DNA of 64,000 nt, taken from contig JAMNXP010000006.1 in assembly GCA_023653095.1 (NCBI GenBank), positions 51,893 to 115,892 on the forward strand, in the 5' to 3' direction. Made by a program: the position numbers and the translations under genes. The stretch's first letter is position 1. Every line of letters begins with the position of its first letter. This DNA comes from Bacteroidia bacterium (GTDB lineage Bacteria; Bacteroidota; Bacteroidia; NS11-12g; UBA955). Below are positions 920 through 63,857 of this stretch, one piece after another. The notes below the pieces were generated by a model that did not search any database, had not been told where the DNA came from, and was given only the letters and a program-made list of their open reading frames with translations.

Positions 920-1600
920 ATGAGTACGATTCTGGAAGTCAAAAACATCAACAAGTACTTTTACGACCCCGTAAAAGTTCAAGTATTAAATGGGGTTAAT
1001 TTCTCTATGAATAAAGGAGAATTTGTATCCATTCAAGGCAAAAGTGGATGCGGAAAAAGTACTTTACTGTACTTGTTAAGTACTATGGACACTAATTACG
1101 AGGGTGAAATATGGCTAAAAGGGGAATTGCTCACAGGAAAATCATCTAATGAACTTGCTAAAATAAGAAATGAACATATTGGCTTTGTATTTCAATTTCA
1201 CTATTTACTGCCTGAGTTTTCGGTGTTGGAAAACGTGATGATGCCTGCTTTAAAACTCGGCTTAAAATCAAAATCAGAAGTAGAACACATTGCATATGAA
1301 AAACTAAAAATGTTGGATATTGCTGATCAAGCCAAAAAGAGAGCCACTCAAATTTCTGGCGGACAAAAACAGCGAGTTGCCATAGCACGAGCATTGATCA
1401 ATGACCCCAACATCATCATGGGAGATGAACCTACGGGTAATTTAGATTCTAAAAATGCCGATTTGGTTTTTGGGATTTTCAAAGATTTAACCTCTAGTTT
1501 AGGAATGTCAATGCTCATTGTTACGCATGATGACGACTTTGCGAAACGAAGCGACAGAGTTATTACCATGGCAGATGGTAGGATTGTGTCTGAGAGTTGA
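920..1600 (+). CDS. ABC transporter ATP-binding protein (LolD-like)
   Basis: Walker A GKSGCGKST, signature SGGQKQR, Walker B IIMGDEPTG. ATG at 920 preferred over 896. The stop codon lies inside the GAGAGTT array. Confidence 0.88.
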   Translation: MSTILEVKNINKYFYDPVKVQVLNGVNFSMNKGEFVSIQGKSGCGKSTLLYLLSTMDTNYEGEIWLKGELLTGKSSNELAKIRNEHIGFVFQFHYLLPEFSVLENVMMPALKLGLKSKSEVEHIAYEKLKMLDIADQAKKRATQISGGQKQRVAIARALINDPNIIMGDEPTGNLDSKNADLVFGIFKDLTSSLGMSMLIVTHDDDFAKRSDRVITMADGRIVSES

Positions 1601-1645
1601 GAGTTGAGAGTTGAGAGTTGAGAGTTGAGAGTTGAGAGTTGAGAG
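1591..1645 (+). repeat. Heptamer array 1: about 8 x TGAGAGT/GAGAGTT
   Basis: Direct reading: tgagagttgagagttgagagt... perfect 7-bp period over 55 bp, overlapping the stop of the upstream CDS. Confidence 0.97.
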
Positions 1646-1681
1646 GCTTGTCGTTAAATTAAATAATTTTATCGGTTGTAG

Positions 1682-1712
1682 TTGTGGGATTGTTTGAATT
1701 GGGTTATTTTTG
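1682..1712 (+). promoter_or_regulatory. Putative Bacteroidota-type promoter for tRNA-Cys (TTG ... TATTTTTG, matching TAnnTTTG)
   Basis: TTG at 1682-1684 and TATTTTTG at 1705-1712 with about 20 bp spacing, about 17 bp upstream of the tRNA. Confidence 0.45.
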
Positions 1713-1728
1713 CAGTCCTTAAAAATAA

Positions 1729-1799
1729 GGTCGGATGGCCGAGCGGCTAGGCACGGGTCTGCAAAACCCTTTACACCGGTTCGAATCCGGTTCCGACCT
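1729..1799 (+). tRNA. tRNA-Cys (GCA anticodon)
   Basis: Acceptor GGTCGGA/TCCGACC, anticodon loop CTGCAAA, T-arm GGTTCGAATCC, discriminator T as usual for Cys. Confidence 0.93.
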
Positions 1800-1805
1800 C
1801 ACACT

Positions 1806-60747: not shown

Positions 60748-60772
60748 TCTACCGTCCGCCCAAAGTATTTCC

Positions 60773-61726
60773 ATGCATTTAGCCGCGGCATTTTTGGGTT
60801 TTCTTTTTTCGGGGGACATTCACTCGTCTATCCCTCAAAACACCGGAAACCAATTCAGACGTGACTCTACAGCTACCCGAATTTGGGAATACGGAGCCGA
60901 TTTTAAATTTAACTTTTCTCTAGCCAACTCATCCCCCAATTGGAGCAGCGGTTCGAGCAACAACATCAGCATTGCTGGTCTTATAAGTGCTGGAGCCAAC
61001 CTAAAAAGGGAACGGATGAGTTGGGATAATACCCTCAAAATCAACGTAGGCGTCATAGCCAACCGCCAGAGCGACATTTTCGGAGACGGCTTTTGGAGCA
61101 CCCGAAAAAACATTGATAACGTATTCTTAGACAGTAAATTAGGGGTGGAATTTGATGAATACCCTACCCTTTCTATGTACGGGGGACTCAACTTTCAAAC
61201 GCAACTTCTACCCGGTTATGTTTACACCAAAGACCCCATCGGACGAGAAATTGCAACCATGACCACCAGTTTTCTTTCCCAAGGACAAACCCAATTGGCC
61301 ATAGGTACTGAAAATAAATTCTACCGAAACTCTTTCATTCGTTTAGGATACGTCACCTTGAAACAGACTTACGTCATCAACCAAGAATTATACAACCTTC
61401 GTAACACCGAAGTCATTGCTCGTGTTCAAAAAGGCCAATTCATTGATAACGAATTTGGTATGCAAGTACAAATGGGGGGCGCCCGAAACTTTGGTCCCAA
61501 AGAAATGTACACCGCTAAACTCAACTATTTGGGCTTCCTTCCCTATCAAACAGATCGCGCCATTTTAGACTCTCGTATAGACATTGGACTTTCAGCCCGT
61601 CTCACCAAATACTTAAACCTCAACTACACCCTCATTTCCATCTTCGACAAAGACCTTGTAAAACCTGGCACCAACGCTTGGCAAAACTCGTGGGTCTTTG
61701 GACTTGGGTATGCGTTTCATATATAG
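60773..61726 (+). CDS. DUF3078-like outer membrane protein
   Basis: Signal-peptide-like start; beta-barrel strands; SDIFGDGFWSTRKNIDNVFLDSKLGVEF; terminal WVFGLGYAFHI. Confidence 0.7.
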   Translation: MHLAAAFLGFLFSGDIHSSIPQNTGNQFRRDSTATRIWEYGADFKFNFSLANSSPNWSSGSSNNISIAGLISAGANLKRERMSWDNTLKINVGVIANRQSDIFGDGFWSTRKNIDNVFLDSKLGVEFDEYPTLSMYGGLNFQTQLLPGYVYTKDPIGREIATMTTSFLSQGQTQLAIGTENKFYRNSFIRLGYVTLKQTYVINQELYNLRNTEVIARVQKGQFIDNEFGMQVQMGGARNFGPKEMYTAKLNYLGFLPYQTDRAILDSRIDIGLSARLTKYLNLNYTLISIFDKDLVKPGTNAWQNSWVFGLGYAFHI

Positions 61727-62044
61727 ACTTTGGTCTTTGGTCTTTGGTCTTTAGCAGGCAGCGGTCAGCGGTCAGCCTTCAGCCATCAGCGGCCAGCCGT
61801 CAGCAGTCAGCTTCGCTGAGACTTTGAGACTCAACAGTCAGCCTTCAGCTTTCGGCGGACAGCGGTGAGCCGGGAGCTGATAGCAGCAGCGAAGCTGCCC
61901 AGCAGCGCCGTAGGGGCTAAGCCCTAAGCCCTAAGTCCTAGCGAAGCGGTCAGCCAAAGACCAAAGACCAAAGACCAAAGACCAAAGACCAAAGACCAAG
62001 ATCCAAAGACCAAGATCCAAAGACCAAGATCCAAAGACCAAAGT
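61727..62044 (+). repeat. Heptamer array 7 (composite): TCTTTGG, CNNNCAG-type units, shared 40-nt module (61794-61833), CTAAGCC units, CCAAAGA/CCAAGAT (61954-62044)
   Basis: Direct parsing. Fills the whole 317-bp convergent gap; left and right ends are reverse complements. Confidence 0.95.
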
Positions 62045-63624
62045 TATCCTATCAACTCCGTGGTTGTGTGGAACTGAATGTCTGGGTATTTTTCCATGGC
62101 CATACGCAAAATGTAGGCGGTTTCTGCGAGGAATACGGGGTTGCCCGATTTGTCGTAGGCAATATTTGAGCCCCGATATTTCATGAAATCTTTTAGATCT
62201 GCTTCTGGACCGGTCATCCAGCAGGCTTTATGGATGCCGCGGGCTTCGAAACGACATTTTGCTCCGTATTCGTGTTCAAGTCTGTATTGCAGAACTTCAA
62301 ACTGAAGTTCACCCACGGTACCTACAAATTTTCGGCTACCCGGTTCTTGAATGAACAAGTTTGCCAATCCTTCGTCGGTGAGCTGTTGGATTCCCTTTTC
62401 GAGCTGTTTGCTTTTCATGGGATCGAGGTTGATCAATTCTTTGAAAATTTCGGGCGAAAACGATGGAATTCCTTTGAAAGTGAATACTTCACCTTCGGTC
62501 AAGGTATCACCAATTTTGAAGTTACCAGTATCGTACAAGCCCACAACATCCCCCGGAAAAGCCGCATCCATCACCTCTTTAGAATCGGCCAAAAAGGTAT
62601 ATGGGGCCGCAAATTTGACCTGTTTCTCGAGTCGGGTATGCTTGTAGGCCTTATTGCGTTCAAATTTGCCGCTGCAAACACGTAGGAAGGCAATTCGGTC
62701 GCGGTGACGAGGGTCTAAATTGGCGTGAATCTTGAATATAAATCCCGAAAATTTGGCTTCGGTGGGTTCCACATCCCTTGCGGTCGTGGGACGTGCGAGC
62801 GGATTTGGAGCGATGTCAACGAAGGTATCCAAGAGTTCTTGTATCCCAAAATTATTCAAGGCAGACCCGAAGAAAACGGGCGCCACATCGGCGTTTAGGT
62901 AATTGTTTATATCGATATCGCCGTAGACACCCTCAATGAGTTCCACGTCTTCGCGAAGTTTTGCTGCATTCTTATCGCCTACCAACTGCGGAAGTCTTTC
63001 GTCATCAACGCCTTGCACAGCAATTACATCATCAGACAGTTTGGTTTTTGAACTTTCAAATAAATTCAGTGATTTCGATGGAAGTAAATACACCCCCTTA
63101 AAATCACGACCACCGTTGATGGGCCAGCTCAAAGGATGCACTTGAATGTCTAAATTTTCTTCGAGTTCATCGAGCAAATCAAAGGGATCTTTACCGTCGC
63201 GATCCATTTTATTGATGAAAACAATCACTGGAGTTTTGCGCATTCTGCAAACTTCCATGAGTCGTTTGGTCTGTTCCTCTACCCCTTTCACGCAATCCAC
63301 CACCAAAATAACGGAGTCAACGGCGGTCAAAGTGCGGTAAGTATCTTCGGCAAAGTCTTTGTGTCCGGGTGTGTCTAAAATATTGACCCACTTTCCTTTA
63401 TACGGAAAGGTCATCACCGAAGTCGCCACCGAAATACCTCTTTGCTTCTCAATTTCCATAAAATCGGAAGCAGCCGTTTTGGTGATTTTGTTGGACTTCA
63501 CCGCGCCTGCGGTTTGTATTTGTCCCCCGAAAAGCAAAAACTTCTCTGTGAGGGTCGTTTTCCCGGCATCGGGGTGAGAAATGATGGCAAAGGTCTTTCG
63601 TTTGGCGATCTCGGATTCGAACAT
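62044..63624 (-). CDS. prfC: Peptide chain release factor 3
   Basis: [63 protein letters not shown]. Confidence 0.97.
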
Positions 63625-63654
63625 AAATCAATAAAGTGCAAAGGTAGTTAATTT

Positions 63655-63857
63655 AGTCTTTGGTCTTTAGTCTTTGGTCTTTGGTCTTTGGTCTTTGGTC
63701 TTTAGACTTTGGTCTTTGGTCTTTGGTCTTTGGTCTTTGGTCTTTAGACTTTGGTCTTTGGTCTTTGGTCTTTGGTCTTTGGTCTTTGGTCTTTGGTCTT
63801 TAGACTTTGGTCTTTGGTCTTTAGACTTTGGTCTTTGGTCTTTGGTCTTTGGTGTCG
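63655..63857 (+). repeat. Heptamer array 8: 28 in-phase units of GGTCTTT with AGTCTTT and AGACTTT variants, then GGTGTCG
   Basis: Direct parsing; no indel over 196 bp; upstream of prfC. Confidence 0.97.

Follow-up and report, generated by a model that had tools for sequence, protein, structure and literature searches.

What are the tandem heptamers that fill the long intergenic gaps in a 64-kb stretch of a Bacteroidia genome (contig JAMNXP010000006.1, positions 51,893 to 115,892), and how did they come to be there? This stretch is referred to below as the window, the genome that contains it as G000, and coordinates without a contig label are window positions. A preliminary description had named eight long gaps as built from tandem 7-bp units. 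Repeats were called with Tandem Repeats Finder (TRF), the gap sequences were also read directly, and period-7 arrays were found in all eight gaps. On balance, the probable explanation is that they are near-neutral intergenic simple sequence repeats of a G-rich, inward-facing heptamer class, grown by slippage and copied ectopically, and possibly serving 3′ ends.

Period-7 arrays called by TRF cover 68% of gap 11487-11626, 97% of 21308-21596, 81% of 24206-24439, 71% of 36131-36327, 62% of 58574-58805, 61% of 61727-62043 and 87% of 63625-63857. In gap 1601-1813 the coverage is 21%, a single 55-bp array, because a tRNA gene (1729-1799) and unique sequence make up most of this gap. The seven repeat gaps have a lag-7 identity of 0.60-0.87, versus 0.25-0.38 expected from composition. 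The only long gap without repeats is, as had been described, the leader of a cobalamin riboswitch (RF00174 at 13513-13717, minus strand). Throughout the window the unit is always 7 bp long (some arrays show higher-order patterns of 14, 21 or 28 bp on this base unit), its sequence is diverse, and GGT followed by four further bases (GGT+4) is the main type, all of which agrees with the preliminary description.

G000 was sampled as stretches, of 864 kb for counts of exact arrays and of 1.22 Mb for gap statistics. The former sample contains 124 exact arrays with a unit of 7 versus 12, 2, 6, 1, 3, 0 and 1 with units of 4, 5, 6, 8, 9, 10 and 11, and the excess of period 7 over other periods is therefore genome-wide. 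When array-bearing gaps were pooled, identity was 0.61, 0.56, 0.52, 0.48 and 0.44 at lags 7, 14, 21, 28 and 35, and 0.22-0.28 at the lags tested that are not multiples of 7; the profile of array-less gaps is flat. The claim that essentially every long gap is occupied holds in the window and fails genome-wide, where arrays were found in 39 of the 160 gaps of at least 120 bp (~24%), distributed as 17/75 at 120-200 bp, 12/28 at 200-300 bp, 8/28 at 300-500 bp and 2/29 above 500 bp. The arrays are unlikely to be an artefact of assembly, since such arrays recur in a sister assembly that was deposited independently and in two genomes of Acidobacteriota; exact copy numbers could be wrong.

Array occupancy depends on the orientation of the flanking genes. 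In the 1.22-Mb sample, arrays were found in 26 of 55 convergent, 16 of 247 codirectional and 3 of 118 divergent gaps (convergent versus divergent, p = 1.3e-12), the gap types being derived from gene calls based on long open reading frames (ORFs), which misassign some of them (one case is gap 58574-58805, called codirectional as far as 59229, whereas congeners have a minus-strand gene on the right). The corresponding numbers in the closest sister genome, G002 (90-99% protein identity to G000 in the two genes tested), are 11/23, 8/86 and 1/40. In the G000 sample 140 of 160 arrays lie inside called gaps, and the median distance of the outermost array is 15 bp to a stop codon and 64 bp to a start codon, most arrays being near stops.

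The GGT units face inward from both gap edges: 38 point in and 9 out in left halves, and 33 point in and 4 out in right halves (Fisher p = 1.1e-10). GGT on the left combined with ACC on the right was observed in 17 gaps of G000 and the reverse arrangement in none, and G002 shows the same bias (16/4 left, 12/4 right, p = 0.002). Composition was considered as the cause of this inward rule and rejected: array-less gaps are nearly symmetric (304/254 versus 266/255 GGT/ACC), and base composition alone therefore does not explain it.

Different arrays of one gap share a common 7-bp register. When spacings between GG or CC dinucleotides outside the same exact array were counted, 2142 were 0 modulo 7 versus 316-657 for each other residue (position-specific substitution counts were discarded because of the bias that anchoring on GGT introduces). 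Pairing between the two arms of one gap is weaker than between arms swapped from gap to gap (-16.8 versus -31.8 ± 5.3 kcal/mol, with 100 of 100 swaps more complementary), a comparison limited to the 18 gaps that hold both orientations; a control in which one half is flipped is confounded by single arrays spanning the middle. An identical unit was found on both sides in 1 of the 18 gaps, compared with 3.8 expected. The mismatch of arms speaks against both fold-back copying and a selected RNA hairpin, the latter of which was rejected on these grounds. Long perfect palindromes are unstable in bacteria, which fits the mismatch, with the caveat that palindromes may also be dropped by assemblers.

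Between relatives, the vocabulary of units is replaced. The sequence (GGTCTTT)3 occurs 112 times in G000 and 7 times in G002, and was not found in the other 55 relatives searched. Only 4 unit classes are common to G000 (31 classes) and G002 (36 classes); the GGTGATC class is present in 23 of 45 array gaps of G000 and 0 of 20 in G002, the GGTCTTT class in 17/45 and 0/20. In G002, gaps 21308, 58574 and 61727 hold other heptamers (GTCTGTA, ACCCGAA, GGTACCT, AGTCTCT, GGTAGTT, GGACTAY). Several gaps also have mosaic stretches in common that lie outside arrays and abound in GCGAAGC hairpins (84% identity over 106 bp). Sharing within a genome combined with turnover between genomes implies that gaps receive copies of each other's sequence.

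Sampled congeners other than G002 contain 3 exact period-7 arrays in ~300 kb. At places with readable synteny, gap 61727-62043, which is 317 bp long in G000, is reduced to ~0 bp or overlapping genes in G006, G007, G012 and G013, gap 24206-24439 in G006, G011 and G013, and gap 36131-36327 in G006; the junction orthologous to the array at 11495-11589 has ~0 bp of extra spacer in G002. The arrays were thus most simply gained between abutting genes. The lineage provides a natural experiment, with two array-rich sisters that use different vocabularies and about a dozen congeners nearly without arrays. In one gap of G006 (L202:8850-9200), GTTTAGC/GTTTAAT heptamers alternate with repeated copies of GGTACTCGGAGTTCACTAAACCTC, possibly an independent start of the same repeat process.

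Single whole-unit changes can be read in contig C17 of the G002 bin, which matches the end of G000 contig C1 at 95-97% identity (other G002 contigs, ~80-85%) and is likely either a closer relative's contig that was mis-binned or the product of a recent exchange of DNA. Between these ~95%-identical blocks, arrays differ by indels of 7, 7, 7, 7, 21 and 35 bp and by two of 11 bp; the 7-nt step proposed in the preliminary description is borne out by the former and not by the latter. Contigs C17 and C25 (L204, L205, L275) use the GGTCTTT/GCGAAGC vocabulary of G000, unlike the remaining G002 bin, and C25 (CAMDUE010000025.1) was deposited as part of a metagenome-assembled genome named Chitinophaga pinensis. 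At two array sites (L204:12860-13440 and L205:10900-11760), C17 has a gene that is missing at that place in G000; these genes encode a 23S rRNA intervening-sequence protein (PF05635) and a TauE/SafE exporter (PF01925). Heptamer arrays may be places where genes are preferentially gained or lost.

The layout is found beyond Bacteroidota. Loci from many phyla retrieved with (GGTCTTT)4 have the same inward bias (33/11 and 20/15, p = 0.005). In each of two Acidobacteriota genomes, a 200-kb sample holds 22 exact arrays with a unit of 7, whereas no other unit length between 4 and 12 exceeds 4 arrays; the units include GGTCTTT, GGAATTT, GGCAGAA and GGGCAAA. No period-7 arrays were found in the 35 divergent gaps of these two samples, and the inward GG bias has p = 0.06 in one genome and p = 0.02 in the other (G062). 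Acidobacteriota loci L288, L291, L293 and L295 carry inward-facing arrays of several vocabularies, and in one gap GGCAGAA faces itself.

The view that no family of such repeats had been described does not hold, as heptamer intergenic repeats with matching placement (PMC4692102) and several Bacteroidetes heptamers (PMC4679880) have been published. Rehm et al. (2015) reported G-rich heptamers, GGGAATC in Xanthomonas and GGGGA(C/T)T in Nostoc, which are intergenic and near ORF ends, have their G strand as the coding strand downstream and the non-coding strand upstream of ORFs, occur as inverted pairs, are rare between divergent genes and vary in length and sequence between close relatives; the Xanthomonas repeats form G-quadruplexes (PMC4692102). 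The arrays studied here likewise consist of mostly intergenic tandem 7-nt units, follow the same G-strand rule in the form of inward GGT, form inverted pairs and are scarce in divergent gaps, and they therefore belong to an already known kind, of which they are an unusually rich case. They differ in that their units are mainly GG(T) or GAG, with G tracts mainly of two bases rather than three or four, so that the G-quadruplex explanation is not transferable to these mostly two-G tracts, and in having, instead of one consensus, ~31 unit types in one genome, a vocabulary replaced in the sister and a strong bias to convergent gaps.

According to these two papers, Mrazek et al. (2007) found that, in the majority of genomes rich in long simple sequence repeats, heptanucleotides outnumber every other class (PMC4679880, PMC4692102), and the 2007 proposal, as cited, was slippage through polymerase interaction, 7 nt being the polymerase contact length (PMC4692102). 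The excess of 7-nt units in G000 is of this kind; the orientation rule, the register and the heterotypy of arms are not in the description as cited. MacGregor (2015) described TAACTGA direct repeats in marine Beggiatoaceae, Cyanobacteria and five Bacteroidetes, a single fixed heptamer that in most cases immediately precedes a start codon; Gramella forsetii and Aequorivita sublithincola have other heptamers in the same gaps, which in close relatives are shorter and repeat-free (PMC4679880). Those are also intergenic heptamer arrays, but TAACTGA is not among the units listed here, and our arrays lie mostly near stops. The heptanucleotide short tandemly repeated sequences of cyanobacteria (Calothrix) resemble them, by description only, in that several heptamer types occur in one genome. 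REP/REPIN elements, which are associated with the RAYT transposase, are also intergenic and form inverted pairs and hairpins; the present arrays lack a Y1 transposase and a fixed unit and consist of tandem heptamers. New here are the inward GGT rule across phyla, the turnover of vocabulary between sisters, the heterotypy of arms, the exclusion of terminators described below and array indels of mostly whole units.

If the arrays are slippage-grown and ectopically copied, they would be seeded at gene junctions, chiefly just 3′ of stop codons, and would grow and shrink in 7-nt steps via strand misalignment. Ectopic template copying would pass array sequence to other junctions; a species' own vocabulary would in this way spread over many gaps and be replaced within the divergence of sister species. 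Near-neutral arrays would be retained mainly in convergent gaps, where they do least harm, and purged from divergent (promoter) gaps, and perfect palindromes between arms would be lost or selected against, leaving the left and right arms settled on different GGT+4 units, which would account for much of the sequence variety. Within this scheme, the 7-nt step, the placement, the orientation, the turnover, the sharing between gaps and the heterotypy of arms are observations, whereas slippage with ectopic copying as the driving process, and near-neutrality, are inferred. Several points weigh against this explanation. Slippage was never directly observed, and pure local slippage predicts neither the inward GGT rule nor a length fixed at 7 across phyla; neither the cause of the exact step of 7 nor that of GG(T) leading the inward strand is covered. 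The comparison with congeners rests on few orthologous gaps, short-read consensus could conceal real copy numbers and perfect palindromes, and the mutual exclusion of arrays and intrinsic terminators in convergent gaps hints at function.

This exclusion was observed when intrinsic terminators were scored by a simple hairpin-plus-T scan: in G000, they were found in 3 of 26 convergent gaps with arrays and in 15 of 29 array-less ones (p = 0.0018), and in G000 and G002 together in 5/37 versus 19/41 (p = 0.0028). A hairpin followed by a T run is thus not a feature of the arrays. Either 3′-end formation is taken over by the arrays, or arrays persist only at junctions that can do without a terminator. 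The former would make them functional 3′-end elements that replace intrinsic terminators and stop transcripts from both sides before the opposite gene, the proximal arm being GU-rich and the distal arm C-rich, G-poor and unpaired, like a Rho loading (rut-like) site; we regard this as possible though rather unlikely. It agrees with the convergent enrichment (with which, as with the exclusion of terminators, the 3′-end processing mentioned in the preliminary description is also compatible), with the GC skew in convergent gaps that hold arrays (+0.14 left, -0.16 right) and with the avoidance of pairing between arms; an unpaired distal arm of this composition would suit Rho. Moreover, arrays stand in G000 in place of an ordinary terminator hairpin in G006 and G013 (gap 58574) and of a hairpin in G012 (gap 21308). 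However, most congeners do without arrays, at some of the orthologous convergent junctions (61727, 36131) congeners lack a terminator as well as an array, the vocabulary is swapped wholesale between sisters, and exclusion is equally expected if insertions into working terminators are purged. A 3′-end role is made directly testable by the exclusion.

Three further explanations are weaker; candidate machinery was searched for in G000 (75% complete, which makes absences there weak) and G002 (99% complete). Heptamers might be added by 3′-end extension at both ends of junction breaks, with GGT as the alignment part and the four variable bases newly made, before the extended ends are joined. Such healing of ends would produce GGT running 5′ to 3′ inward from both edges, the arrangement observed in G000, G002 and unrelated phyla (G062 included). 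We nevertheless consider it improbable: no Ku was found in any of the 14 genus genomes and no RVT_1 reverse transcriptase in array-rich G002, no template RNA is known, and inner arrays of the GAG type do not clearly obey the inward rule. Ku end joining and reverse-transcriptase templating were both rejected; the only RVT_1 domain found in the genus is at C11:326-886 of G000 (L252, E = 1e-15). Still less probable are mobile REP- or MITE-like (miniature inverted-repeat transposable) elements with inverted heptamer ends, which the inverted layout, the dispersed copies and the GCGAAGC hairpin motifs bring to mind. Neither G000 nor G002 has a Y1 (RAYT-type) transposase (PF01797), on which ground RAYT/REP mobility was rejected, and the arms are not matched inverted repeats and have no fixed ends or length. 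The least credible is snap-back copying of the right arm from the left, which accounts for the inverted orientation but predicts arms more complementary than random pairs, the opposite of what the swaps and the scarcity of shared units reveal; it is contradicted for the present state of the arrays, although rapid later divergence could still mask it. Loss of mismatch repair was rejected as a cause, and is not needed, since MutS is present in both genomes.

That intergenic repeats in bacteria keep to a length of 7 nt has been on record since 2007, and the literature on these repeats covered here contains no explanation of it. Any mechanism has to satisfy three quantitative constraints, namely GG(T) reading inward, a 7-bp register that is maintained and arms that avoid matching each other. 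As a long shot, no more credible than the mobile elements, a dedicated bacterial activity in several phyla might extend 3′ DNA ends at junctions in 7-nt steps (alignment on GGT plus four new bases) and refill gaps with a species-specific vocabulary, resembling telomere addition inside the chromosome.

The individual arrays of the window, as called by TRF and reading, are as follows. A plus-strand array of TGAGAGT (GAGAGTT; 7.9 copies, 1591-1645) begins within the 3′-terminal codons of a gene for an ABC-transporter ATPase. Following the stop codon of a gene for a TonB-dependent receptor, and upstream of a minus-strand DUF4465 gene, GGTCTTT is repeated 13.6 times (11495-11589, plus). The next gap has a left arm of mixed GGTGATC/GGTTATC (29 copies, 21313-21517, plus) and a right arm of GCTGACC/ACCGAAA/ACCGATT-type units, which are GGT+4 on the minus strand (21519-21593), with 3 bp between its end and the stop codon of an FKBP-type gene. 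As comparison with congeners also indicates, the last codons and the stop of ligA come from an array, the GGTGATC left arm at 24189-24312 (17.7 copies, plus); it is followed on the minus strand by an inner array of ACACTCT (GAGTGTA; 8.6 copies, 24351-24410) and a right arm of ACCAAGG (GGTCCTT; 3.6 copies, 24409-24433) that reaches the ATG of the next gene. Immediately 3′ of a stop lies the GGTCTTT left arm at 36130-36194 (9.3 copies, plus), with which the adjoining inner array of GGCTGTC (4.7 copies, 36193-36225, plus) shares its 7-bp register according to the spacing analysis; the right arm (36281-36325, minus) consists of GCTGACC and then GATCACC (GGTGATC on the minus strand).

In gap 58574-58805, a plus-strand left arm of GGTCCTT/GGTCTTT (3.6 copies, 58577-58601) is followed by minus-strand arrays of CTCTAAA (GAGTTTA; inner, 8.3 copies, 58647-58704) and CCGACCA/CCGATCA (right arm, 10.3 copies, 58746-58817). 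Gap 61727-62043 contains, on the plus strand, a left arm of GGTCTTT (3.6 copies, 61728-61752) and inner degenerate GCNNNCA heptamers of the GGTCAGC type (61759-61811) and, on the minus strand, an inner array of CTAAGCC (3.4 copies, 61917-61940) and a right arm of AAAGACC (GGTCTTT on the minus strand; 12.9 copies, 61954-62043) that extends to the stop of the RF3 (prfC) gene. Upstream of this gene lies an array of GGTCTTT/AGTCTTT/GACTTTG (28.9 copies, 63652-63853, plus). Gap centres (36245-36290 and 61805-61945 in the window; L226:1582-1720, L228:8019-8323 and L046:3519-3754) contain GCGAAGC mini-hairpin motifs and 17-bp repeats (CCTAGCGAAGCGTGAGT). These are ~6.6-fold enriched in the gaps of G000 and not in those of G002, and the density of GCGAAGC in G000 is 0.55 per kb in gaps versus 0.08 elsewhere.

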